This document shows, piece by piece, positions 11,848 to 32,665 of a DNA stretch of 64,000 nucleotides; the stretch's first letter is position 1; each line of letters opens with the position of its first letter. The translations under genes were made by a program, and so were the position numbers. Origin of the DNA: Draconibacterium aestuarii (GTDB lineage: Bacteria; Bacteroidota; Bacteroidia; Bacteroidales; Prolixibacteraceae); the NCBI GenBank assembly GCA_026671195.1, contig JAPOHD010000002.1:62001-126000 (forward strand), in the 5' to 3' direction. A model generated the notes under the pieces. That model was not told where the DNA came from. It saw only the letters and a list, made by a program, of their open reading frames with translations, and searched no databases.

Positions 11848-12272
11848 AGCGGCAGGCCGCTTTATCGCTGCTTCGGTTAAACGGGGCAGAGGAAAGTCCG
11901 GGCAACGCAGGGCGCCGTGTTTCCTAGCGGGAAGGTCTTTGAAAGGGGACAGCAACGTAACAGAAAATAACCACCTTGTTGTGGCGTGTCCACGACGGGG
12001 AACGGGTGAAAAGGTGCGGTAAAAGCGCACCGGTGATGGTGGTAACATCGTCAGCCGTACGTCTCACGGGTTGCAAGGCCATGTATATCCAAAGTGTTTG
12101 CCGCTGTTGCGGTACAGCAAAACGGCCCGTTTTGTTCTCAACGCACAAGAGACTTTGGAGGGGTAGGCTGCAGGATTCCGACAGTGATGTCGGGACTAGA
12201 TAAATGATAAAGGCTTTTCGTTTGTTTTCGGATGGATGGAAGAGTACAGGACCCGGCTTACAGGCCTGCCAC
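11848..12272 (+). ncRNA. rnpB: RNase P RNA, bacterial class A
   Basis: Catalytic RNA that removes 5' leaders from pre-tRNA. The conserved core is plain: GAGGAAAGTCCGGGC near 11890, the CACGACGGGGAACGGGTGAAAAGG and GGTGCGGTAAAAGCGCACC block near 12000, GGGTAGGCTGCAGG near 12160, ACTAGATAAATGATAA near 12200 and the 3' part ACAGGACCCGGCTTACAGGCC. The 5' GGCAGGCC at 11851 pairs with AGGCCTGCC ending at 12270, closing helix P1. Ends are set by this pairing, within a few bases. Length about 425, somewhat longer than in E. coli (377). Confidence 0.95.
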
Positions 12273-12278
12273 TATTTT

Positions 12279-21270: not shown

Positions 21271-22587
21271 TTAAATTCCGCTAAAATCAACATTCTCAAA
21301 TAAAACAGAAGGTGTAAGCCACGATGAATTTTTGTTTACATCGTTGCCTATTTCGCCAATGTTCGACCAAAGAGTAAGCATATTGCCTGTAATATTCATT
21401 TCTGAAACCGGTTTCGTCAATTGGCCATTTTCAATTAGAAATCCGTCGATACCATATGAGAAATCGCCAGTTGATCCATTGCAGTTTCCTCCGTTAAAAC
21501 CGGTAACCAGAATTCCTTTTTTTGTCGATGCCACCATTTCGTCAAGATTTTTATTGCTGGTTTCGAATACCAGATTGGTTGTACCTCCGCTGGTAGGAGC
21601 CATTTTTAGTTTTTTCCCGTAATAAGTATCAATATAGTAGGTTTCCAGAACACCTTTGTTGAACACCGGACGTTTTTTAGTTGCAAGACCTTCACCATCG
21701 AACAAACGCGATCCGCGCCCTCCAATAATAAATGGGTCGTCGATTAGTGTAAGTTTGTCGGAAACAACTTTTTTGCCCAATTTATCGATCAGGAATGAAT
21801 TTTTCTGTTGTATTGCCGATCCGTTTAAGGCATTAATAAGTGGTCCGAATATTCGTCCCATTGAACGGTTCTCAACAATCATCGACATCGTTCCGGATTC
21901 GATCTTTTCCTGGCCAATTTTTTTCAGTGCTCTTTCGAGGGCGATTTTACCGGTGCCTTCTTTTTTTAGTTTGTTGTATTTTATGGCACTTTCGCTCCAG
22001 CCTGATTCAGGACGTGCTTCGCCACCATCTACTGAAACCGAAGTGAAGATACCAAAATGCGAGTTGGCGGTATACCCCTCGAAACCGTTGCTGGTAACTG
22101 TAATGCGCTCGTTCAGTCCGTCGTAATAACTACACGAAACTGAAATGAGTCGTTCGTCTTTTCCGAATACTTCTTTTTCGGCAGCAAATGCTAGATCAAT
22201 CTTTTCTTTTGGGGTAATTTTGCTGAAATTTTCATCCAATAAATCCAGGTTTTCACCTTCGCCCTTATAATATAGTTCAGGTTCGGGTAAGGTGCGGAAT
22301 TCGTCTTCCGACAGGAACCTTGTTCCTTCGATAGCTTCTTCAATAAAACGGGCCAGCTCTTCTTTTTTCATTCGGCTGGTAGAGTGGGCTGAATATTTTC
22401 CATCCACAAATAAACGGATAGAAAGACTGCTTTGAATAGCTTGTTCCAGTTTGTCGATTTTTTGTTCGCGAACCTCAACACTGCTGCTCTGACTATTGGC
22501 AATGCTAACGCTTGCTTGTTGGGCACCATTTTCTAAGGCGTGATTCATGGCCCATTTGGCTAATATATGTTTTTCTTCTTTTGTCAT
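21271..22587 (-). CDS. TldE/PmbA-like subunit of the TldD/TldE metalloprotease
   Basis: Non-catalytic partner expected to pair with the TldD protein encoded just upstream; the complex degrades small unfolded peptides and, in E. coli, matures microcin B17 and CcdA. The 438-residue product lacks the HExxxH zinc motif and has the PmbA/TldE C-terminal pattern (VTGFNGGNCNGSTGDFSYGIDGFLIENG, in part). No signal peptide is seen, in contrast to its partner. The gap to tldD is 83 bases, same strand, so one operon is likely. Confidence 0.9.
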   Translation of the reverse strand: MTKEEKHILAKWAMNHALENGAQQASVSIANSQSSSVEVREQKIDKLEQAIQSSLSIRLFVDGKYSAHSTSRMKKEELARFIEEAIEGTRFLSEDEFRTLPEPELYYKGEGENLDLLDENFSKITPKEKIDLAFAAEKEVFGKDERLISVSCSYYDGLNERITVTSNGFEGYTANSHFGIFTSVSVDGGEARPESGWSESAIKYNKLKKEGTGKIALERALKKIGQEKIESGTMSMIVENRSMGRIFGPLINALNGSAIQQKNSFLIDKLGKKVVSDKLTLIDDPFIIGGRGSRLFDGEGLATKKRPVFNKGVLETYYIDTYYGKKLKMAPTSGGTTNLVFETSNKNLDEMVASTKKGILVTGFNGGNCNGSTGDFSYGIDGFLIENGQLTKPVSEMNITGNMLTLWSNIGEIGNDVNKNSSWLTPSVLFENVDFSGI

Positions 22588-22670: not shown

Positions 22671-24197
22671 TTAGGCATTTGTTCCGCCAACGGTCATTTT
22701 CTTTACTAATACAGTGGGTAATCCAAGTGTAACCGGAACTGACTGTCCGTCTTTTCCGCACGTCCAGGTGCCACTGTCGTTTTTGTAATCGTTGGCTGCC
22801 ATAGATATATCGGCTAAAGCCTGAGGCCCGTTTCCAACAATGTTAATGTCTTTAATGGGGCGGGTTAGTTTCCCTTTTTCAATAATGTATCCCGATTTTA
22901 CGAAGAATGTAAAGTCACCAGCACCGATTTTTACTTCGCCATTGCTAAAGTTATCTACATATACTCCATAATCAACTTCAGCAAATATTTGCTCTACTGA
23001 GTGCGGACCATTTTCCATGTAGGTAGAACGCATCCTGGGAAGTGGCATGTTGCGGAATCCCTCACGGCGTCCGTTCCCGGTTGGTTCAACACCATAATGT
23101 TTGGCACTGATACGGTCGTGAATGTAACTGTTCAAAATGCCATCTTTTACCAGGTAGGTTTTTTGTACATCGTTCCCTTCGTCATCAATATTGATAGCGC
23201 CACGATCGTTTGGAAGTGTGCCGTCGTCAATAATATTGATAAAATTTTCAGCTACTTTTTTATTCAGTTTGTCGCTGAAAATTGAAGTTCCCTTTCGGTT
23301 AAAATCAGCTTCGAAAGTATGTCCTATTGCTTCGTGTAAAAGAATTCCGGAACCACCTGCACCCAAAACAACGGGCATTTCGCCGGCTTTTGGTTTAACG
23401 GCTTCAAATAAAATATTGGTTTTACTGATGGCTTCATTGGCTAACTCGTCAATTAAATCTTCGTTTAACCATTCAAATCCTTTTCGCACCGAGCGGGCCG
23501 CATAGGCATTTTCAATTTGTTCGCCCTTCTGCATAATACAAACAGCATAGAAGCTAACCATCGGTCGATAATCGTAGGTTAATCTTCCTTCCGAATTGTA
23601 AAACAAAACGAAGCTTGTTTCGTCACTTAAACCGGCATTCACTTTAATTACTTTATCGTCGAGACTAAAAATTTTATCGTTTATTCCCTGCACAAAAGGT
23701 ACTTTGTCTTTAACCGAAACATCTTCCCATTTTTTCGAAATTTTATAATAATCAGAAGGAAGTTTTTCGCTAAAAGCTTGTTGTTTAAAATCACTGCTGC
23801 TGTCGGCAATGTTCGCTGCTAATTTTGCAGCGTTTAACATATCGTCAAGTGCGATGTTTTCAGAGTAGGCAAAACCAGTTTGGTCGCCTTTTAAAACCCG
23901 AATACCAACACCAAAGTCGATGTTTGAATAGGCTCGGTTTACTTTGCCGTCTTCAAGGCCAATGCTATTTGATGTTTTATGTTCGAAAAAAAGATCGGCA
24001 TAATCGCCACCTTTGCTCATAGCAGTTGCAACTACTTTTTGCAACATCTCGGTTGAAACCTCAAAATGGTCTAAATAATTTTTCACGTCTGCTGAAATTT
24101 GTACGTTCTGGCACGATTGCATAAAAGGAGGCAATACCATGCTTCCGGCTGCAAACATACCACTTGTTTTAATAAAATTACGTCTGTCAACTTTCAT
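22671..24197 (-). CDS. TldD-like zinc metalloprotease with Tat-type signal
   Basis: Catalytic half of a TldD/TldE protease. The zinc motif HEAIGH is at residues 288-293 (HExxxH), and the C-terminal GTWTCGKDGQSVPV contains the conserved Cys ligand. Residues 1-30 carry RRNFIK followed by a hydrophobic stretch and MQSC, which reads as a twin-arginine signal with a possible lipobox. That predicts export of TldD while its TldE partner has no signal. 508 residues, slightly above the E. coli protein because of the signal. Confidence 0.92.
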   Translation of the reverse strand: MKVDRRNFIKTSGMFAAGSMVLPPFMQSCQNVQISADVKNYLDHFEVSTEMLQKVVATAMSKGGDYADLFFEHKTSNSIGLEDGKVNRAYSNIDFGVGIRVLKGDQTGFAYSENIALDDMLNAAKLAANIADSSSDFKQQAFSEKLPSDYYKISKKWEDVSVKDKVPFVQGINDKIFSLDDKVIKVNAGLSDETSFVLFYNSEGRLTYDYRPMVSFYAVCIMQKGEQIENAYAARSVRKGFEWLNEDLIDELANEAISKTNILFEAVKPKAGEMPVVLGAGGSGILLHEAIGHTFEADFNRKGTSIFSDKLNKKVAENFINIIDDGTLPNDRGAINIDDEGNDVQKTYLVKDGILNSYIHDRISAKHYGVEPTGNGRREGFRNMPLPRMRSTYMENGPHSVEQIFAEVDYGVYVDNFSNGEVKIGAGDFTFFVKSGYIIEKGKLTRPIKDINIVGNGPQALADISMAANDYKNDSGTWTCGKDGQSVPVTLGLPTVLVKKMTVGGTNA

Positions 24198-24638: not shown

Positions 24639-25652
24639 ATGAAATCAAAATTGGAATACATTTGGCTGGATGGTTCTGAACCAACTCAGCAACTTAGAGC
24701 TAAAACACGCGTAGCAGAAAATTTTAGCGGTAACCTGGAAGATTGTCCGGTATGGTCTTTTGATGGATCATCAACGAACCAGGCAGGTGGTGAACTTTCT
24801 GACCTTTTATTAAAGCCAGTATTTGTTTGTCCTGACCCGGATCGCAAAAATGCATATTTGGTATTAACTGAGGTTTTAAATCCTGACGGAACTGCACACG
24901 AAACAAATGGTCGTGCGCACATTGAAGAAGAGGATGAAGATTTCTGGTTTGGTTTTGAGCAGGAATATTTCTTGTATGATCCACAAACTCGTCTTCCTTT
25001 AGGTTTCCCTGCAGGAGGTTTTCCTGAGCCACAAGGACCTTATTATTGTGGAGTAGGTGGTTCTAAAGCTTTCGGTCGTGCAATTGTTGAAGAGCATTTC
25101 GATCTTTGTTTGGAAGCCGGATTAAACGTAGAAGGTATTAATGCAGAGGTAGCTGCCGGACAGTGGGAATATCAGATTTTCGCTAAAGGTGCTCACAATG
25201 CTGGTGACCAGATTTGGGTGTCACGTTTCCTTTTGGAACGTACTGCTGAAAAATATGGTGTTGATGTTGAATGGCATCCAAAACCACTTGGAAAAGATCT
25301 TGACTGGAACGGTTCGGGTATGCACGCAAACTTCTCGAATGGTTTAATGAGAACTTGTGGCGACGAAAAAGTATTTACTGCAATTTGCGAAGAGTTCGGT
25401 AAATATATTCCTGAGCACATTGCTGTTTACGGAGCATACAACGACCAACGTCTAACCGGTAAACACGAAACTGCATCGATTCACGATTACAGCTATGGCG
25501 TATCTGACCGTGGTGCTTCGATTCGTATTCCTGTTGGAACAGTAGAAGATGGTTGGAAAGGTCGTTTGGAAGACCGTCGTCCTTCTTCAAATGCAGATCC
25601 ATACAAAGTTGGAGCTCGTATCATTAAAACGGTGCACGGAGCAAAAGTTTAA
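24639..25652 (+). CDS. Glutamine synthetase type II (eukaryote-like)
   Basis: Makes glutamine from glutamate, ammonia and ATP in the cytoplasm. The 337-residue product has the short GSII form: beta-grasp N terminus (LEYIWLDGSEPTQQLRAKTRV), the WSFDGSSTNQAGG motif at about 38-50, the metal-binding FGFEQEYFLYD, the ATP-site GSGMHANFS at about 225-235 and NDQRLTGKHETASIHDYSYG. It lacks the C-terminal adenylylation segment of GSI. It is monocistronic with its own terminator. It is one of three glutamine synthetase relatives within 8 kb. Confidence 0.95.
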   Translation: MKSKLEYIWLDGSEPTQQLRAKTRVAENFSGNLEDCPVWSFDGSSTNQAGGELSDLLLKPVFVCPDPDRKNAYLVLTEVLNPDGTAHETNGRAHIEEEDEDFWFGFEQEYFLYDPQTRLPLGFPAGGFPEPQGPYYCGVGGSKAFGRAIVEEHFDLCLEAGLNVEGINAEVAAGQWEYQIFAKGAHNAGDQIWVSRFLLERTAEKYGVDVEWHPKPLGKDLDWNGSGMHANFSNGLMRTCGDEKVFTAICEEFGKYIPEHIAVYGAYNDQRLTGKHETASIHDYSYGVSDRGASIRIPVGTVEDGWKGRLEDRRPSSNADPYKVGARIIKTVHGAKV

Positions 25653-25675
25653 TTTATTATCTTTTATATAGAAAG

Positions 25676-25703
25676 AACTGCCTCTTGTGGGGCAGTTTTT
25701 TTT
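25676..25703 (+). terminator. Terminator of the GSII gene
   Basis: AACTGCC and GGCAGTT arms around TCTTGTGG, then TTTTTT. The aminotransferase gene begins within 30 bases, so read-through could feed it. Confidence 0.8.
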
Positions 25704-25733
25704 ATGCCATTTTTGCCGAAAAATACAATGTTT

Positions 25734-26840
25734 ATGAAGAGGTTAGAAATTAATCACCATCTTTTTTACGAGACTTCTCATTCGCCTTCTTTAGTTGATA
25801 TTGTTGGTGAAAAGATGTTGGGCCGGGTGCTGGATTTTTGTTTTATTGAGAATCCTTATTATCCGGGGAAACGCCTGCTACGAAAGTTAAAGCGTAAATT
25901 GCCGGTGGTTATAAAATCATATCCGTCGAGTAATCCAACTTTGGCACAAAAAGATCTGGCTACAGTAATTCATACCCATCCCAACCACATTGTTATTGGA
26001 AACGGGGCCACTGAACTGATTACAATTATCGAAAATCAGTTGGTTGAAAATATTGGGATTCCAATACCTACTTTTAGCGAATACATTGAAAAACTAAGAA
26101 GCTCAGATCAGGTTAAATTATTCCAGTTGCCTGCCGAAAATCGCTATCAGCTCGATTTGGATGAGTATGCCGGGTGGATTAATGCAGAAGGATTGTCCGC
26201 TGCTTTAATTATTAATCCGGGAAATCCAACAGGGCAATTTATTTCAACCGAAAAGATGCTCGGTTTTCTGGAACAAATGAGGGATTTACAACTAATATTG
26301 GTTGATGAATCGTTTATTGATTTTGCCGGAGAAGAAGTCCCCAGCCTAATTCCTTTTATTGAAAAATATCCGAATGTGATTATTGTGCGAAGCATGAGCA
26401 AACATTGTGGGATTCCGGGTTTGAGGTTGGGGTATTGTTGTACTTCAAACGCTGATTTCCTTCGTAAAATAAGAAGTGCTTTACCCATTTGGAATATTAA
26501 CACTTTGGCTGAATATTTTCTGACTCAGTTAAAAGATACTGATCGGGAATATCATATTGCGCGAAAAAAAGTGATTGCCGATGTGGAAGATTTGTACCTG
26601 AAATTGAAAACGATTCAGGGATTTGAAGTGTATCCGACTGGTAGTAATTTTATTTTGTTAAAAATTACCTACGGTCCAACAGCATACGAACTGCAAATGA
26701 AACTTTTGGAAGAATACGGTGTTTACGTGCGCGACTGTTCAAACAAAGTTGGTCTCGATAAATATCATATCCGTGTGGCTTCGCAGGGGCGAAAAAAAGA
26801 TAAGTTTTTACTAAAAGCCCTTGTAGAATTAGCCGGGTAG
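25734..26840 (+). CDS. PLP-dependent aminotransferase, class I/II (HisC/CobD-like)
   Basis: Fold-type I aminotransferase or decarboxylase. The product of about 368 residues shows the phosphate/cofactor region GNGATELI, the INPGNPTGQF loop, ILVDESFIDF with the Asp that contacts the pyridine nitrogen, and SMSKHCGIPGLRLGY with the Schiff-base Lys. These are shared by histidinol-phosphate aminotransferase and threonine-phosphate decarboxylase; the substrate cannot be chosen. No other his or cob gene is near. In-frame ATGs at 25704 and 25728 also exist; 25704 touches the U tail of the terminator, so a later start was preferred. Convergent with the HAD gene. Confidence 0.85.
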   Translation: MKRLEINHHLFYETSHSPSLVDIVGEKMLGRVLDFCFIENPYYPGKRLLRKLKRKLPVVIKSYPSSNPTLAQKDLATVIHTHPNHIVIGNGATELITIIENQLVENIGIPIPTFSEYIEKLRSSDQVKLFQLPAENRYQLDLDEYAGWINAEGLSAALIINPGNPTGQFISTEKMLGFLEQMRDLQLILVDESFIDFAGEEVPSLIPFIEKYPNVIIVRSMSKHCGIPGLRLGYCCTSNADFLRKIRSALPIWNINTLAEYFLTQLKDTDREYHIARKKVIADVEDLYLKLKTIQGFEVYPTGSNFILLKITYGPTAYELQMKLLEEYGVYVRDCSNKVGLDKYHIRVASQGRKKDKFLLKALVELAG

Positions 26841-26913
26841 CTTTTTACTTTGGTAGGCTTGTTTATGCATTTGTAAAGTCGAATGTTTTGCTTATTTGAA
26901 TGTAATATTGGTA

Positions 26914-27771
26914 TTATAATTCAATGACTGCCGATTCGCATACGTATGTAGGTATTATTCCTGTACTCCCTATTTTTATTCTGGCCATTTCGGGTAGGGT
27001 ATTACCTGAAAGAACCAGCGCGGTATCGAGTCCAAATTTGTTCCCTCCAATAATGTCGGTGTAAAGTGTGTCGCCAACCATTAAAATCTCGCCACGTTTT
27101 ATATCAGGAATGTCTTTCATGGCTCTTTCGTATGCCAGTAAAAACATTTGGGCATCGGGTTTACCAAAGCGGATAAACTTTTTCCCCAGTATTTTTTCAA
27201 CCATATCGGCCAGCCCTCCAACGGCAACAGAGATGTCGTTTTTATTCACCGGGTAATTGATATCGGTATTGGCAACAACCACGGTCATGTTTTTTTTACG
27301 CAGTAGGTTGATGGTTTTGTTAATGTCTTCGTTCCAGTCGAAACCTTCATCATCTAAAAATGCACACGATTCAATGTGATCAATGTCGTTTAGATCCAGA
27401 TTGCGGATTGAAACTGTTTTTAAACCGGCAGTTTCAATATAGTGGGCCGAATCATTGGTTCCCAAAAATGCAACAGCATTTCCATTAGTGACTTTGGTTT
27501 TAAAAAATTCCATGGCTAACATCCCCGACGACAAGATCTTGTCGGTTGTAATACAGCCCAAACCTCTTTCCTGGTACCATTTCGATAGTGCTTCCGGACT
27601 TCTTGATGAGTCGTTTGTGAGTACGTAATACGGAATTCCTTTTTTGTCCAGATATTGAAAAGTATTGGCAATATCCGGGATTAAACCCTTGTGGTTTTTT
27701 AGTACTCCGAATGCATCAAAAAACACTGCTTTGTAGTTTTTTACCACACTTCTAAAGCTTCTTGTTCTCAT
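26914..27771 (-). CDS. HAD superfamily class IIA protein (NagD-like)
   Basis: 285-residue protein of the NagD-like HAD group, which includes phosphatases for small phosphorylated metabolites. Motif I is VFFDAFGVL, where the second Asp of the normal D-x-D is Phe; motif II has VLTNDSSRSPE; motif III/IV is GKPDAQMFLLAYE then MVGDTLYTDIIGG. The nucleophile and magnesium Asp residues are there but the acid/base Asp is missing, as in some class IIA subgroups. Third gene of a tight operon with the kinase-like protein (10-base gap) and the GSI-like ligase. Substrate unknown. Confidence 0.85.
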   Translation of the reverse strand: MRTRSFRSVVKNYKAVFFDAFGVLKNHKGLIPDIANTFQYLDKKGIPYYVLTNDSSRSPEALSKWYQERGLGCITTDKILSSGMLAMEFFKTKVTNGNAVAFLGTNDSAHYIETAGLKTVSIRNLDLNDIDHIESCAFLDDEGFDWNEDINKTINLLRKKNMTVVVANTDINYPVNKNDISVAVGGLADMVEKILGKKFIRFGKPDAQMFLLAYERAMKDIPDIKRGEILMVGDTLYTDIIGGNKFGLDTALVLSGNTLPEMARIKIGSTGIIPTYVCESAVIEL

Positions 27772-27781
27772 ATTGTTAGTT

Positions 27782-28855
27782 CTATAATTTTAAGGCTTTT
27801 AAAATTTTCTCGACCCGGTAGTTGGCATCCATCGCCGGAAAATACTTATCGTAGGCCTCTTGAATTAATTTGCTCGAATATTGTTTCCTGAAAAAATACG
27901 GGCCGTCTTTTATTACATAGTTCAAAATAAAAAAGCGGTAAACTTCTTTAATCAGTCGAACTTCGGGTTCGGTTAATGGAAAAATCTTGTGATATTCTTT
28001 CAAAAACATCATAAAGCGGTCTTCCATTAAGGTATCCACCATGTAACTAAAAACAGTGCAGTCGCCAACATCGGAAACCACCCGGCTAAAAAAGTAAAAA
28101 TCCATTACCCGCGACGACATTCTGAACCAATCGTAATCCCAGCGTGAGTAAAATCTGCCATCGCCTGTAATCGAAAAATTTCCAATATTCCAGTCAACCA
28201 AAACAGGGATGGTTTCAATTTCGGTGGTGTAATTTACTTTGTCGGCATTGTTCAAAAAGCTATCGGCATTGCGCAGTATAAGATCTTTGTGCGAGGGGCA
28301 CATCTTAATCTCATTTTTTTGAATAGAGCGCTTTAGTTTTTGAATATCGGTGATTACATTTTTTGACGAATGTGGCAGTTGGTTGGTAACGTTTGTACAC
28401 GCTTTGTGGAATCTTGCCAATTCGCGTCCGAGTTTTTTTATGTGCTTTTCTTCCAGTCTTCGCGGAAGTTTATTCCGTATTTGTATGGGATTGTAAAAAA
28501 CTACCCAGGCACTTCGTTCCAGTTCGTGATAGCGATAAATAAACAGCTCGTTTCTTTTTACCAGCGATTGTGCCAAAAACATTTGATACGGATGCTCAAG
28601 GTTGTTTGCCAGATTATTTATTATAATGTGGTCTTCTCTAAAGTCCTCAAAATTTCCGTATTCCGAAAGTTTGGCGAAAACGGGCTCTCGTTCGTAAAAT
28701 GAAACTTTGTAAACATGGTTTGTCGAAACCTGGGCACTTACATCAAATACCCCTTTTATTTCGTGCCTGTCGTTGTCAAATTCTTTCCAGGCCAGTTTTA
28801 TTATTTGTGAGTAATCTAATTTTTGCATCTTTTTTTTTGATGTATTGGAAATCAA
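27782..28855 (-). CDS. Aminoglycoside-phosphotransferase-fold kinase-like protein
   Basis: 357-residue cytoplasmic protein resembling the APH/choline kinase group. The catalytic loop appears as VLVDWNIGNFSI, where Asp and the distal Asn are kept but the usual preceding His (H-x-D-x4-N) is absent, and the metal-binding motif is RWDYDWFR. A second stretch SHKDLILRN fits the H-x-D-x4-N wording but lies about 40 residues earlier; which one is catalytic is unclear. The N-terminal lobe (VYKVSFYEREPVFAKLSEYGNF, in part) may hold the ATP-binding Lys. It lies between the GSI-like gene (7-base gap) and the HAD gene (10-base gap). Phosphoacceptor unknown. Confidence 0.78.
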   Translation of the reverse strand: MISNTSKKKMQKLDYSQIIKLAWKEFDNDRHEIKGVFDVSAQVSTNHVYKVSFYEREPVFAKLSEYGNFEDFREDHIIINNLANNLEHPYQMFLAQSLVKRNELFIYRYHELERSAWVVFYNPIQIRNKLPRRLEEKHIKKLGRELARFHKACTNVTNQLPHSSKNVITDIQKLKRSIQKNEIKMCPSHKDLILRNADSFLNNADKVNYTTEIETIPVLVDWNIGNFSITGDGRFYSRWDYDWFRMSSRVMDFYFFSRVVSDVGDCTVFSYMVDTLMEDRFMMFLKEYHKIFPLTEPEVRLIKEVYRFFILNYVIKDGPYFFRKQYSSKLIQEAYDKYFPAMDANYRVEKILKALKL

Positions 28856-28862
28856 AAGTAGC

Positions 28863-30221
28863 TTAAATTATCTCAAAATATCTTCTTCGTTCCCAATTTG
28901 GATCGTTGTGGTCAATTTGCTTGCATTCCCATTCGCGGGTTAAGGTAAAATATTTCACAAATGCTTCGCCAAAAAGTTTGTTGGCAATTTCTGAATTTGC
29001 CATTTTTTCAGTTGCTGCTTCAAGCGATACAGGCAAAATACCATTTGTTTCGTTGGTGTATCCATTCCCGGTTGTTGGTGCAACATCAAGGCGAAGTTTG
29101 TTTTTTATTCCGTATAATCCTGCTGCCAGCGAAGCCGCTAAAGCCAAATAAGCATTTGTGTCAGATCCCGGCACGCGCAGTTCAATTCGGGTTGATTTAT
29201 TTCCGCCAGGAATGGCGCGAATTGCAGTAGTTCGGTTGTCAATTCCCCAGGTTAAAGTTGAGGGAGCCCAGTCGCCGCCACACAATCGTTTGTAACTGTT
29301 CGGGTTCGGAGCAAACATGGGAAGTATTTCGGGCAAGCACTTTAATTGTCCGGCAATGTATTGTTCCATGGTTTGGCTAAGCCTTGTTTCTTTTTGTGCA
29401 TCAAAAAACAAATTCTTTTTCTTGCTCATATCCCACAAACTTTGATGAATGTGCCCCCCGCACCCGGGAAGTTTCTCATTCCATTTGGCCATAAAAGTGG
29501 CCACAAAATTATGCCGGTATGCAATTTCTTTTACTGCCGTTTTAAAAAGTAAGGCTTTGTCGGCTGCTTTTAAAATATCGTCAAAAATAACGGTTGCTTC
29601 AATTACGCCAGGCCCTGTTTCGGTGTGCATTCCTTCCAGCGGAATATCAAATTTCTGAAGCAATTCAAACAAATCGTTAAAATAAGGCTGGTTTAACGAA
29701 GTTCTTAAAATGGAATATCCAAACATGCCCGGTGTTATCGGTTTTAAATCCTGAAAACCGGAAGCGTAAATTTCATTTGGAGAGCCCAGAAAATTAAACC
29801 ATTCGAATTCCTGGGCAAAAATGGGTTTAAAACCAAGCGACTCACTTTCTGCAGCAATTTTTTTTAAGAGACTGCGTGAGCAGGTCGAGTTGGCATATTT
29901 TTTATCAGCACTAAAATCTCCCAGAAAAAAAGGAGTACCGTTTTCCCATGGGATTTCCCGAAAAGTATCCATGTCGATTATTGCTTTTGCATCGGGATAA
30001 CCGGTGTGCCATCCGGTAATTTCTGAGTTTTCGAAACATTTATCGTTGCAATCCCAGCCAAAAATTACATCACAAAAACCCATTCCGTTTTCAATAGCAC
30101 TTAAAAACTTATCCTTGTGAATGTATTTTCCTCTCAAAATTCCGTCAATGTCGGCAACTGCGAATTTAACCTTTGTAATTTCTGCAGCTTTTATTTTATC
30201 TATGATTTCTGTTTTCTTCAT
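28863..30221 (-). CDS. Glutamine synthetase type I-like ligase (GlnA/PuuA family)
   Basis: ATP-dependent ligase that joins ammonia or an amine to the gamma-carboxyl of glutamate. The 452-residue product has the GSI fold: metal-site FAQEFEWFNF, HTETGPGVIEATV, MAKWNEKLPGCGGHIHQSL, APNPNSYKRL, IDNRTTAIRAIPG and IELRVPGSDTNAYLALAASLA. The last block resembles gamma-glutamylputrescine/gamma-glutamylmethylamide synthetases (GADANPYL type) more than true GlnA, and no adenylylation Tyr segment is obvious. First gene of the operon with a kinase-like and a HAD protein, which also points to a small-amine pathway rather than bulk nitrogen assimilation (inference). Confidence 0.88.
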   Translation of the reverse strand: MKKTEIIDKIKAAEITKVKFAVADIDGILRGKYIHKDKFLSAIENGMGFCDVIFGWDCNDKCFENSEITGWHTGYPDAKAIIDMDTFREIPWENGTPFFLGDFSADKKYANSTCSRSLLKKIAAESESLGFKPIFAQEFEWFNFLGSPNEIYASGFQDLKPITPGMFGYSILRTSLNQPYFNDLFELLQKFDIPLEGMHTETGPGVIEATVIFDDILKAADKALLFKTAVKEIAYRHNFVATFMAKWNEKLPGCGGHIHQSLWDMSKKKNLFFDAQKETRLSQTMEQYIAGQLKCLPEILPMFAPNPNSYKRLCGGDWAPSTLTWGIDNRTTAIRAIPGGNKSTRIELRVPGSDTNAYLALAASLAAGLYGIKNKLRLDVAPTTGNGYTNETNGILPVSLEAATEKMANSEIANKLFGEAFVKYFTLTREWECKQIDHNDPNWERRRYFEII

Positions 30222-30427
30222 TCTAACGTTAAAATAGTTTTTGTTTTTATAAATATCAAATTCATTTTTATGAAATATTGTGTTGAGGTATTTGAATTTT
30301 ATGACTGTTTTGTCAAAATGTCAAAAAAACAGCACTCATACCCCTGGAAAACTACATCTGTTCGTAAATAATTCTTAAAAATTGATGATTGGGTATGATA
30401 AATATCAGGATTACGTTCAGGATTTGT

Positions 30428-30435
30428 TATTTTTG
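30428..30435 (+). promoter_or_regulatory. Possible -7 box of the GSIII gene (TATTTTTG)
   Basis: Fits TAnnTTTG, 41 bases before the ATG in the divergent GSI-like/GSIII spacer. No matching -33 element at about 19 bases, so an activator may be needed or the site may be false. Confidence 0.4.
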
Positions 30436-30475
30436 ATACCAGACAAAAAAACGACAGACTTAAAATTCATTAATC

Positions 30476-32665
30476 ATGGCACAATTTAGATTTAAAGCAC
30501 TGGAGGAAGTGTTAAACCGTATTCCCGACGAATTTATAAGGGAAGAAAATCTGGTTTCGGATTACTATGGAATGATGGTGTTCGACAAAGCGAAAATGAA
30601 AAAGTACCTTTCGCGGGAAGCATACAAAGCAGTTACCGATGCAATTGAGAAAGGTACAATTGTTGACCGAAAAATGGCGGATCAGGTGGCACAGGGAATG
30701 AAAGCCTGGGCTATCGAAAATGGTGCAACTCACTACACGCACTGGTTTCATCCGTTAACCGACGGAACAGCAGAAAAACACGATGCATTTATTGTACACG
30801 GAGCCGATGGTGGAGTTATCGAATCGTTCTCGGGGAACCTTTTGTCGCAGCAGGAACCCGATGCTTCTTCTTTCCCTAGTGGCGGAATTCGCCAAACTTT
30901 TGAGGCGCGTGGTTACACGGCATGGGATCCAACATCACCCGCTTTTATCAGCGAAACTACGCTAACCATTCCTACCATATTTATTTCATTCACCGGTGAA
31001 GCCCTTGATTATAAAACACCTTTACTGCGTGCATTAAATGTAGTAAATAAAGCTGCAACCGATGTGTGCCATTATTTTGATAAAAATGTTACCTCGGTGC
31101 AAGCAAACCTGGGCTGGGAACAAGAGTATTTTCTGATTGATGAAGCTTTATACATGGCGCGTCCCGACCTTGTGTTAACCGGACGTACTTTAATGGGGCA
31201 CAGTTCATCGAAAGACCAGCAGTTGGACGACCACTATTTTTCATCGATTCCGACACGTGCAAACCGATTTATGCAAGATGTTGAGAATGAAGCCTACAAA
31301 CTGGGTATTCCTGTAAAAACACGTCATAACGAGGTGGCTCCAAACCAATTTGAATTTGCCCCCATTTACGAAGAAGCAAACCTGGCTAACGACCATAACC
31401 AGTTGATGATGGATATTATGCAGAAGATTGCCCGCAGGCATAAGTTCCGCATCTTATTTCACGAAAAACCTTTTGCCGGAATCAATGGTTCGGGGAAACA
31501 CAACAACTGGTCGTTGGAAACCAATACCGGTGTAAACGTGTATAAACCAGGTAAAAATCCGAAATCGAACTTGCAGTTCTTAACCTTTGTAATTAATACT
31601 TTGCAGGCTGTTTACGAAGGGCAGGATTTGTTACGTGCAAGTATTTTAACGGCTTCCAACTCGCATCGTTTGGGTGCAAATGAAGCACCACCGTCAATTC
31701 TTTCGGTTTTCCTCGGAACGGAAGTTTCTAAAATGCTCGACCTAATGGAAGAGGCTGTTGTGGACAGAAAAATGACACCGGACGAAAAAACGGCCCTGAA
31801 ATTAAATATCGGCCGTATTCCTGAAATTATTCTGGACAATACTGACCGCAACCGTACTTCGCCTTTTGCCTTTACCGGTAACCGTTTTGAGTTCCGTGCT
31901 GTGGGGTCAACGGCAAATAATGCATCAGCATTAATTGTGCTGAATACTTTGGTAGCAAGCCAACTAAAAAAGTTTAAGGTGGCTGTTGATAAATTAATTG
32001 AAAAAGACGTTAAAAAGGATGAAGCCATTTTTCAGGTCTTAAAGGGTTTAATTATTAGCTCGAAACCAATTCGTTTTAATGGCGATGGTTATAGTGAAGA
32101 ATGGGTAAAAGAAGCAGCAAAACGCGGTCTTACAAATGTTCGTAATGTACCCGAGTCGCTGGCGGCATACATGCGTCCCGAAAGCAAGGAGCTTTTTGAA
32201 ACATTGGGCATCTTCAACGAATCGGAATTACGCGGCAGGGTAGAGGTTGAGTACGAAAAATTTATCATGAAAATTCAGATCGAATCGCGTGTGCTTGCTG
32301 ATATCGCCATTAATCATATTGTGCCAACAGCTGTTGAATACCAAACAATGCTGCTCGAGAATGTGAAAAACCTGAAAGCAGTATTTTCGGAAAAAGAGTT
32401 TAATTCGTTGGCTGAAGGTAGGCTGGAATTAATTAGAGAAGTTGGAAAACACGTTTCGGTAATTAAGCTAAAACGTAAAGAAATGACCAATGCCCGTGCC
32501 GAGGCAAATGTTATTGAAGATTTAATTGAGAAGGCAAAAGCTTACGACAGTACGGTTCGTCCGTTCCTTGAAGAAATAAGAGGACACATTGATAAGCTTG
32601 AGTTAATTGTGGATAATGAAAAATGGCCATTGCCAAAATATCGTGAGTTACTTTTTGTAAGATAA
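30476..32665 (+). CDS. glnN: Glutamine synthetase type III
   Basis: Large dodecameric glutamine synthetase typical of Bacteroidota and cyanobacteria. The 729-residue product opens with the GSIII N domain (YYGMMVFDKAKMKKYLS), then THWFHPLTDGTAEKHDAF, the metal-site GWEQEYFLID near 215, KTRHNEVAPNQFEFAPIYEEAN (in part), the ATP-site GINGSGKHNNWSLETNTG near 340, and NRTSPFAFTGNRFEFRAVGS. Length is standard. It is transcribed away from the GSI-like operon and ends in its own terminator. Probably the main ammonia-assimilating enzyme (inference from the phylum). Confidence 0.97.
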   Translation: MAQFRFKALEEVLNRIPDEFIREENLVSDYYGMMVFDKAKMKKYLSREAYKAVTDAIEKGTIVDRKMADQVAQGMKAWAIENGATHYTHWFHPLTDGTAEKHDAFIVHGADGGVIESFSGNLLSQQEPDASSFPSGGIRQTFEARGYTAWDPTSPAFISETTLTIPTIFISFTGEALDYKTPLLRALNVVNKAATDVCHYFDKNVTSVQANLGWEQEYFLIDEALYMARPDLVLTGRTLMGHSSSKDQQLDDHYFSSIPTRANRFMQDVENEAYKLGIPVKTRHNEVAPNQFEFAPIYEEANLANDHNQLMMDIMQKIARRHKFRILFHEKPFAGINGSGKHNNWSLETNTGVNVYKPGKNPKSNLQFLTFVINTLQAVYEGQDLLRASILTASNSHRLGANEAPPSILSVFLGTEVSKMLDLMEEAVVDRKMTPDEKTALKLNIGRIPEIILDNTDRNRTSPFAFTGNRFEFRAVGSTANNASALIVLNTLVASQLKKFKVAVDKLIEKDVKKDEAIFQVLKGLIISSKPIRFNGDGYSEEWVKEAAKRGLTNVRNVPESLAAYMRPESKELFETLGIFNESELRGRVEVEYEKFIMKIQIESRVLADIAINHIVPTAVEYQTMLLENVKNLKAVFSEKEFNSLAEGRLELIREVGKHVSVIKLKRKEMTNARAEANVIEDLIEKAKAYDSTVRPFLEEIRGHIDKLELIVDNEKWPLPKYRELLFVR

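Follow-up and report, generated by a model that had tools for sequence, protein, structure and literature searches.

A conserved operon of a glutamine synthetase-like ligase, a kinase and a HAD protein in Bacteroidota, with a possible role in ethanolamine metabolism

Introduction

Three genes of the glutamine synthetase (GS) superfamily lie within 8 kb in the genome of Draconibacterium aestuarii. The middle one, here called GS1, opens a minus-strand operon that continues with a kinase-like gene (KIN) and a HAD-like gene (HAD), and the operon sits between a GSII and a GSIII gene, with an aminotransferase gene (AT) convergent to it. This arrangement raises the question of what a GS-like enzyme does next to a kinase and a HAD protein, and on which compound the three may act. 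The window analysed here is the whole stretch of 64,000 nucleotides in which the operon lies (contig JAPOHD010000002.1, positions 62,001 to 126,000), and all coordinates are those of the window. An original prediction, made from the sequence of the window, had placed GSII, a GSI-like ligase and GSIII within 8 kb, and all six open reading frames (ORFs) of the region were found where it had put them. Our preferred reading, to which we give even chances, is that the operon is a module for the gamma-glutamylation and phosphorylation of ethanolamine or a similar small amino alcohol.

Conservation of the GS1-KIN-HAD operon

The operon consists of GS1 (28863..30221, minus strand, 452 amino acids, Pfam PF00120), KIN (27782..28828, minus strand, 348 amino acids) and HAD (26914..27771, minus strand, 285 amino acids). 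The predicted gene order and the 10-nt gap between KIN and HAD were both recovered, but the predicted gap of 7 nt between GS1 and KIN rests on an unlikely TTG start. The KIN start is most likely the ATG at 28828, because all 15 relatives inspected have a Met there and the residues ahead of it are not alike; the GS1-KIN gap is therefore 34 nt.

Conservation was followed in two samples. A contig scan gave 310 stretches encoding a KIN relative, the best 80 of which were read (the named loci). Separately, 296 Bacteroidota genomes were searched, with KIN called at E ≤ 1e-3, HAD at E ≤ 1e-50 and GS1 at 50% identity or more. KIN relatives at 88–89% identity were found in Draconibacterium and Maribellus, which suggests an origin of the window in Prolixibacteraceae. 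The genomes with KIN are also those with HAD, 36 of the 296, and the two genes share a strand and lie no more than about 2.3 kb from each other. GS1 is present in 34 genomes, 30 of them among the 36 with KIN-HAD and four without the pair; two more matches were weak (33–35%). Of the 75 named loci with 1 kb or more of sequence downstream, 73 have HAD 3' of KIN in the same orientation and no further than 400 nt away, and the remaining two have it at 1.3–1.4 kb. Upstream, where 79 named loci extend for 1.5 kb or more, GS1 lies 5' of KIN, same strand and within 3 kb, in 75, the exceptions being three loci without GS1 and one with GS1 inverted.

The order GS1-KIN-HAD is fixed in Prolixibacteraceae, in Sphingobacteriaceae and in a family of another class of Bacteroidota, here f24. 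GS1-KIN-HAD is a real operon, kept across distant Bacteroidota. Such a neighbourhood comparison had been set in advance as a point on which the original prediction could fail, and it found the three genes together in distant relatives. KIN is patchily distributed in the family (45 of 140 genomes) and the genus (27 of 37) of the source organism, which fits an accessory, niche-linked function. Distance correlations for KIN, HAD and GS1 (0.95, 0.94 and 0.92 over 97 loci) lack a control gene and are hence not counted as evidence. A literature search returned no paper on the cassette among the matches listed, which does not prove that there is none.

GS1 as a probable gamma-glutamyl-amine ligase

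GS1 scores 301 bits against Gln-synt_C and reaches no NCBIfam equivalog cut-off for GS or PuuA, with 205 of the 429 bits required by the curated GlnA model and 192 of the 650 required by that of PuuA. The PuuA-type block noted in the original prediction (GSDTNAYLALAASLA) is present. In the GSI enzymes, E327 is the flap glutamate, and N264 and Y179 lie near the ammonia/glutamate site. Aligned to E. coli GlnA, all 55 GS1 homologues examined have these residues replaced (E327 by W, N264 by P and Y179 by F). The residues for metal, glutamate and ATP (E129, E131, E212, E220, H269, R321, R339, R344, R355, E357 and R359) are kept in 55 of 55, and H271 in 54. Since the former are replaced while the latter are retained, GS1 is very probably a gamma-glutamyl-amine ligase, as the original prediction had proposed. 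Plain glutamine synthetase was rejected as a function of GS1 on these active-site residues and is, judged from them, very unlikely.

Some GS1 homologues are linked to an ethanolamine permease gene, as described below. These form one clade (support 98/96) inside the family of cassette GS1s, in a tree whose basal branches are short and poorly resolved and whose root is unsure, PuuA being on a very long branch. Across the 55 sequences one column only is specific to either group, and the cassette GS1s probably use the same amine as the permease-linked forms, or a similar one. A putative role of GS1 as a gamma-glutamylethanolamide (amino-alcohol) synthetase is fairly well supported.

Ethanolamine context in relatives

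In five genomes a GS1 homologue (54–60% identity) is located directly 3' of a gene scoring above the NCBIfam ethanolamine permease cut-off. Four of these (G033, G091, G150 and G162) have no KIN-HAD, and the fifth (G126) encodes KIN-HAD on another contig. An iron-type alcohol dehydrogenase and an aldehyde dehydrogenase follow downstream in all five, and a class-I amidotransferase/C26 hydrolase in four; in G033 the latter and the aldehyde dehydrogenase read as a single ORF. The assignments were confirmed with profiles in two loci (Fe-ADH, Peptidase_C26 and ALDH in L171, Fe-ADH in L169) and made by eye in L167, L168 and L170. This permease and dehydrogenase context of the GS1 homologues makes an amino alcohol the likely amine, in line with the earlier suggestion.

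Ethanolamine permease was found in 13 of the 296 genomes, seven of which encode KIN, and in seven of the 11 KIN-encoding genomes outside f24. These seven differ in the route that accompanies the permease: a GS1 operon in G126, another GS-like ligase in G064 and G158, EutBC in G099, G214 and G249, and a lone permease, about 15 kb from KIN, in G190. The two genomes with the other ligase (33–34% identity to GS1) encode KIN and have no GS1. Their operons (L180 and L181) comprise this second GS-like ligase, an SDR, an aldehyde dehydrogenase, a GATase and an ethanolamine permease, which is the layout of the Streptomyces glnA4 cluster. EutC and the SDR/GATase set were each profile-checked in one genome (the latter in L180). 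KIN-HAD is linked to ethanolamine by these genomes, less firmly than GS1.

The locus in the window shows no ethanolamine-utilisation context, and its genome encodes neither ethanolamine permease nor EutB. The best match in this genome to the Fe-ADH is 35% identical over part of the query. Six hits pass the cut-off for the C26-type hydrolase, an uninformative result, since 14 of 14 control genomes pass too.

KIN and HAD

KIN has no Pfam match at 1e-3, and its single NCBIfam match, homoserine kinase at 2.7e-4, is weak and far below the cut-off. Sequence searches of the PDB, with the single sequence and with a profile, gave chance matches only. An AlphaFold2 model built from 20 sequences (mean predicted confidence, pLDDT, 79.7) had 119 PDB matches at E ≤ 0.001 in Foldseek, and the best 50 of the 119 are APH-superfamily kinases or kinase-fold entries. 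YtaA, amicoumacin kinase and N-acetylhexosamine kinase came out on top, followed by weaker matches to aminopropanol kinase (6ef6) and choline kinase (7nb2); the TM-scores are modest (0.43–0.67 by query length). Judged from this predicted structure, KIN is a small-molecule kinase of the APH/choline-kinase fold, in agreement with its earlier description as kinase-like. In the APH/choline-kinase motif a His usually precedes the catalytic Asp, and this His is not kept in KIN. The catalytic residues K52, D211, N216, D230 and D232 are invariant in the 23 KIN sequences compared, so KIN is probably an active enzyme.

HAD scores 115 bits against the NCBIfam HAD-IIA subfamily, above the cut-off of 100 bits, and is homologous over its whole length (E 3e-103) to PDB entry 2hx1, which we take to be from Cytophaga hutchinsonii. 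The nucleophile and motifs II, III and IV (D19, T52, K204, D234 and D239) are kept in all 113 HAD sequences. Motif I reads D-[AS]-[FY]-G-V in the same 113, with Phe or Tyr two residues past the nucleophile, where chronophin has Asp in the alignment. The Asp at this position is the acid/base of HAD phosphatases; a literature search on it returned no paper. Because this residue is replaced, the dephosphorylation of an ordinary alkyl phosphate cannot safely be inferred for HAD, and its assignment as a plain phosphatase is doubtful. PDB entry 2hx1, named a predicted sugar phosphatase, shares the motif D-A-F with HAD, which makes that name doubtful as well.

Proposed pathway and alternative explanations

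We infer all the substrates, and the order of the steps, as follows. GS1 would use ATP to form an amide between the amine group of ethanolamine and the gamma-carboxyl group of glutamate, giving gamma-glutamylethanolamide, a step with fair support. KIN may then phosphorylate the hydroxyl of gamma-glutamylethanolamide, or that of ethanolamine itself. HAD, in what is the weakest step, would act on the phosphorylated compound via its Asp nucleophile, by a variant of HAD chemistry. In the operons of relatives that resemble ethanolamine-utilisation operons, the alcohol and aldehyde dehydrogenases would stand in for KIN and HAD. Since the window genome has no permease or EutB, its ethanolamine might come from within the cell, by lipid turnover, or by another route. 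In genomes of the Sphingobacteriaceae type a divergently encoded GGACT-type cyclotransferase could free the amine again, and in some Prolixibacteraceae the CobD-like AT could supply ethanolamine phosphate. In its most specific form, which we put forward tentatively and think unlikely to hold in every part, ethanolamine is capped with glutamate and O-phosphorylated by an undescribed kinase family, and a HAD protein that works in the absence of the usual acid/base Asp acts on the resulting gamma-glutamyl-ethanolamine phosphate; such a route would replace the dehydrogenase route of the GlnA4 type and has no known counterpart.

In favour of the ethanolamine module, the permease is found in 7 of 36 genomes with KIN and 6 of 260 without (p 2e-4), and EutB in 4 of 36 and 4 of 260 (p 0.009). 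The GGACT gene divergent from GS1, and the aminopropanol and choline kinases among the weaker fold matches of KIN, also speak for it. Several observations weigh against the module. The p-values are overstated because the genomes share ancestry, and in absolute numbers EutB is equally common in genomes with and without KIN (four and four). The permease is missing from 29 of the 36 genomes with KIN, including the window genome and 25 of 25 from f24, and EutB occurs in just one f24 genome. Six of the 36 have KIN-HAD without GS1, and in four of them (G119, G171, G190 and G203) the searches showed no ligase of the gamma-glutamylethanolamide type; KIN therefore does not depend on GS1 everywhere. The top fold matches of KIN are not ethanolamine kinases, and its model is poor (pLDDT below 50) at residues 210–216 and 230–236, which hold catalytic residues. 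Finally, all 113 HAD sequences lack the acid/base Asp of a phosphatase.

These four genomes also place another explanation well, namely that GS1 and KIN-HAD are separate modules sharing ethanolamine. KIN would make phosphoethanolamine for lipids or the cell surface, HAD would act on phosphoethanolamine, and GS1 would dispose of the excess or store it. We regard this as a possibility of about the same, rather low, standing as the specific route given above. It would account for the inseparability of KIN and HAD (36 of 36 genomes) next to a GS1 that is missing in six of these and stands alone in four others, and for the three routes used by genomes with permease and KIN (G126; G064 and G158; G099, G214 and G249). 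However, the fixed order of the three genes in Prolixibacteraceae, Sphingobacteriaceae and f24 suggests consecutive steps, and no Kennedy-type cytidylyltransferase or phosphotransferase recurs in the flanks, as judged by eye and by clustering.

The amine may also be an amino sugar or a different amino alcohol, with KIN a sugar-type kinase and HAD acting on an anomeric phosphate, a substrate less dependent on acid catalysis. The missing acid/base Asp would suit such a substrate, N-acetylhexosamine 1-kinase is among the top fold matches of KIN (4wh2 and 4ocv), and homologues of galT and galM as well as glycosidase genes (named by eye) lie 3' of HAD in many Mucilaginibacter loci. Yet neither Prolixibacteraceae nor f24 show these sugar genes recurrently, and the pocket residues of GS1 match those of the permease-linked forms; we consider this explanation improbable. 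Least credible by far is a reading of GS1 as a plain or regulatory glutamine synthetase that belongs to a nitrogen-assimilation island, with KIN-HAD unrelated to it. GSII and GSIII do flank GS1, and three lineages have GSII next to the cassette, but the replacement of E327, N264 and Y179 in all 55 homologues, the missed GS cut-offs and the ethanolamine permease context in five genomes argue against it.

Genes surrounding the operon

GSIII (30476..32665, plus strand, 729 amino acids; PF12437, GSIII_N; PF18318, Gln-synt_C-ter; PF00120, Gln-synt_C) is divergent from the operon. GSII (24639..25652, plus strand, 337 amino acids; Pfam Gln-synt_N and Gln-synt_C) is a genuine GS type by profile, and scores 397 bits against NCBIfam GlnII, below the cut-off of 500. 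Of the 21 Prolixibacteraceae loci, 19 reach far enough upstream to show GSIII, and 18 of them have it; 16 reach far enough downstream to show GSII, which is present in 15. The island of three GS genes is a trait of Prolixibacteraceae. Elsewhere, GSII lies upstream of the cassette in 46 of the 53 further named loci that extend far enough, and near it in 8 of the 17 f24 loci read. In three f24 loci (L122, L124 and L127, from G203, G171 and G119), in genomes without GS1, KIN-HAD is found directly 3' of GSII, as if GSII had replaced GS1.

A GGACT-type gamma-glutamyl cyclotransferase gene is found upstream of the cassette in 41 of 53 named loci outside Prolixibacteraceae with enough flank, and it is divergent from the adjacent GS1 in 45 of the 46 loci holding both (Pfam checked on one member). 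The window genome has one GGACT gene, located elsewhere than the cassette. A short gene resembling that of a GxxExxY-type protein recurs at the cassette, either inside it or next to it (between GS1 and KIN, or 3' of HAD), in 15 loci of one cluster (c12; L025, L034, L037, L042 and others) and in L125, L135 and L136 of another (c20), that is, in two distant lineages.

AT (25704..26840, plus strand, likely start ATG 25728) encodes a CobD/HisC-like pyridoxal phosphate enzyme and is convergent with the operon, as had been predicted. Its proposed place as a core part of the pathway was not supported. AT is found beside the cassette in 11 of the 21 Prolixibacteraceae loci, is missing in 6 of the 16 with at least 3.5 kb downstream, and was seen in none of the 59 loci from other families, whose flanks vary. 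It was ruled out as a core part on these absences and is a neighbour added specifically in Prolixibacteraceae. AT matches Aminotran_1_2, with CobD/HisC the best NCBIfam model, below its cut-off, and it is 68% identical to the copy in L007, which starts at the matching Met. The best PDB match is 6oux (E 3.5e-57), annotated as threonine phosphate decarboxylase-like and presumably SMUL_1544, the L-serine-phosphate decarboxylase of norcobamide synthesis. The match spans the whole protein, with the SHSPS N-terminal motif included. AT, whose function is putative, lies outside the core cassette.

A terminator-like hairpin with an 18-pair stem and a T-rich tail (25667..25706, plus strand) is located 3' of GSII, between GSII and AT, and is weak evidence by itself, as the hairpin scan overall gave 10 hits against 9.1 in shuffled sequences. 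No -33/-7 pair was found in a search of four intergenic stretches for Bacteroidota-type promoters, which gave two -7-like boxes on the plus strand, and a sigma-70 scan was uninformative (22 sites against 21.2 in shuffles). Adjoining GSII is a TldD/PmbA-like ORF pair (22671–24197 and 21271–22587, families named by eye), homologues of which recur in 13 loci. At the start of the first ORF of the pair is a twin-arginine/lipoprotein-like signal (MKVDRRNFIKTSG...MQSC), which a TldD-like protein would not usually carry. The window also contains an ordinary bacterial RNase P class A RNA (11849–12276, 218.8 bits).

Comparison with known systems

The closest parallel is GlnA4 of Streptomyces coelicolor, which makes gamma-glutamylethanolamide (PMC6529630). 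The same publication proposes a route from ethanolamine through gamma-glutamylethanolamide and gamma-glutamylglycine to glutamate and glycine, with the GlnA4 step the only one shown. GlnA4 is a GS-like ligase without E327, as is GS1, the position being F in GlnA4 and W in PauA7. Its cluster encodes a dehydrogenase, an aldehyde dehydrogenase, a permease and a glutamine amidotransferase, as do the permease-linked GS1 operons, whereas the cassette in the window, likened to it at the E327 site, has a kinase and a HAD protein in place of the dehydrogenases. In the text available, the words kinase, phosphatase and phosphorylat- occur only in the reference list (PMC6529630).

PuuA (E. coli puuA, L172) also uses the GS fold to glutamylate an amine and has Tyr in place of E327; its identity to GS1 is 28%. 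KIN shares the fold, the catalytic D-xxxx-N and the DxD of the APH/choline-kinase superfamily (YtaA, 2q83; amicoumacin kinase, 6sui; NahK, 4wh2; microcompartment aminopropanol kinase, 6ef6), but at 12–17% identity in the matches looked at, and has no Pfam family. HAD is homologous over its whole length to the HAD-IIA proteins 2hx1, chronophin and NagD and keeps their Asp nucleophile, the Thr of motif II, the Lys of motif III and the Asps of motif IV, differing by the Phe or Tyr that takes the place of the acid/base Asp throughout.

If the ethanolamine module is real, the gamma-glutamylation logic of PuuA and GlnA4 reaches Bacteroidota, and a testable assignment is offered for a kinase without a Pfam family and for the HAD group whose solved member is 2hx1. 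GS-like genes of this kind should then not be counted as extra glutamine synthetases. The inseparable pair of a kinase and a non-canonical HAD protein is the surprising part and suggests new phosphoryl chemistry or a new metabolite. Glutamylation of amines by GS-like enzymes is already known; the orphan kinase-HAD pair would go further than these systems if a phosphorylated gamma-glutamyl intermediate is indeed formed.

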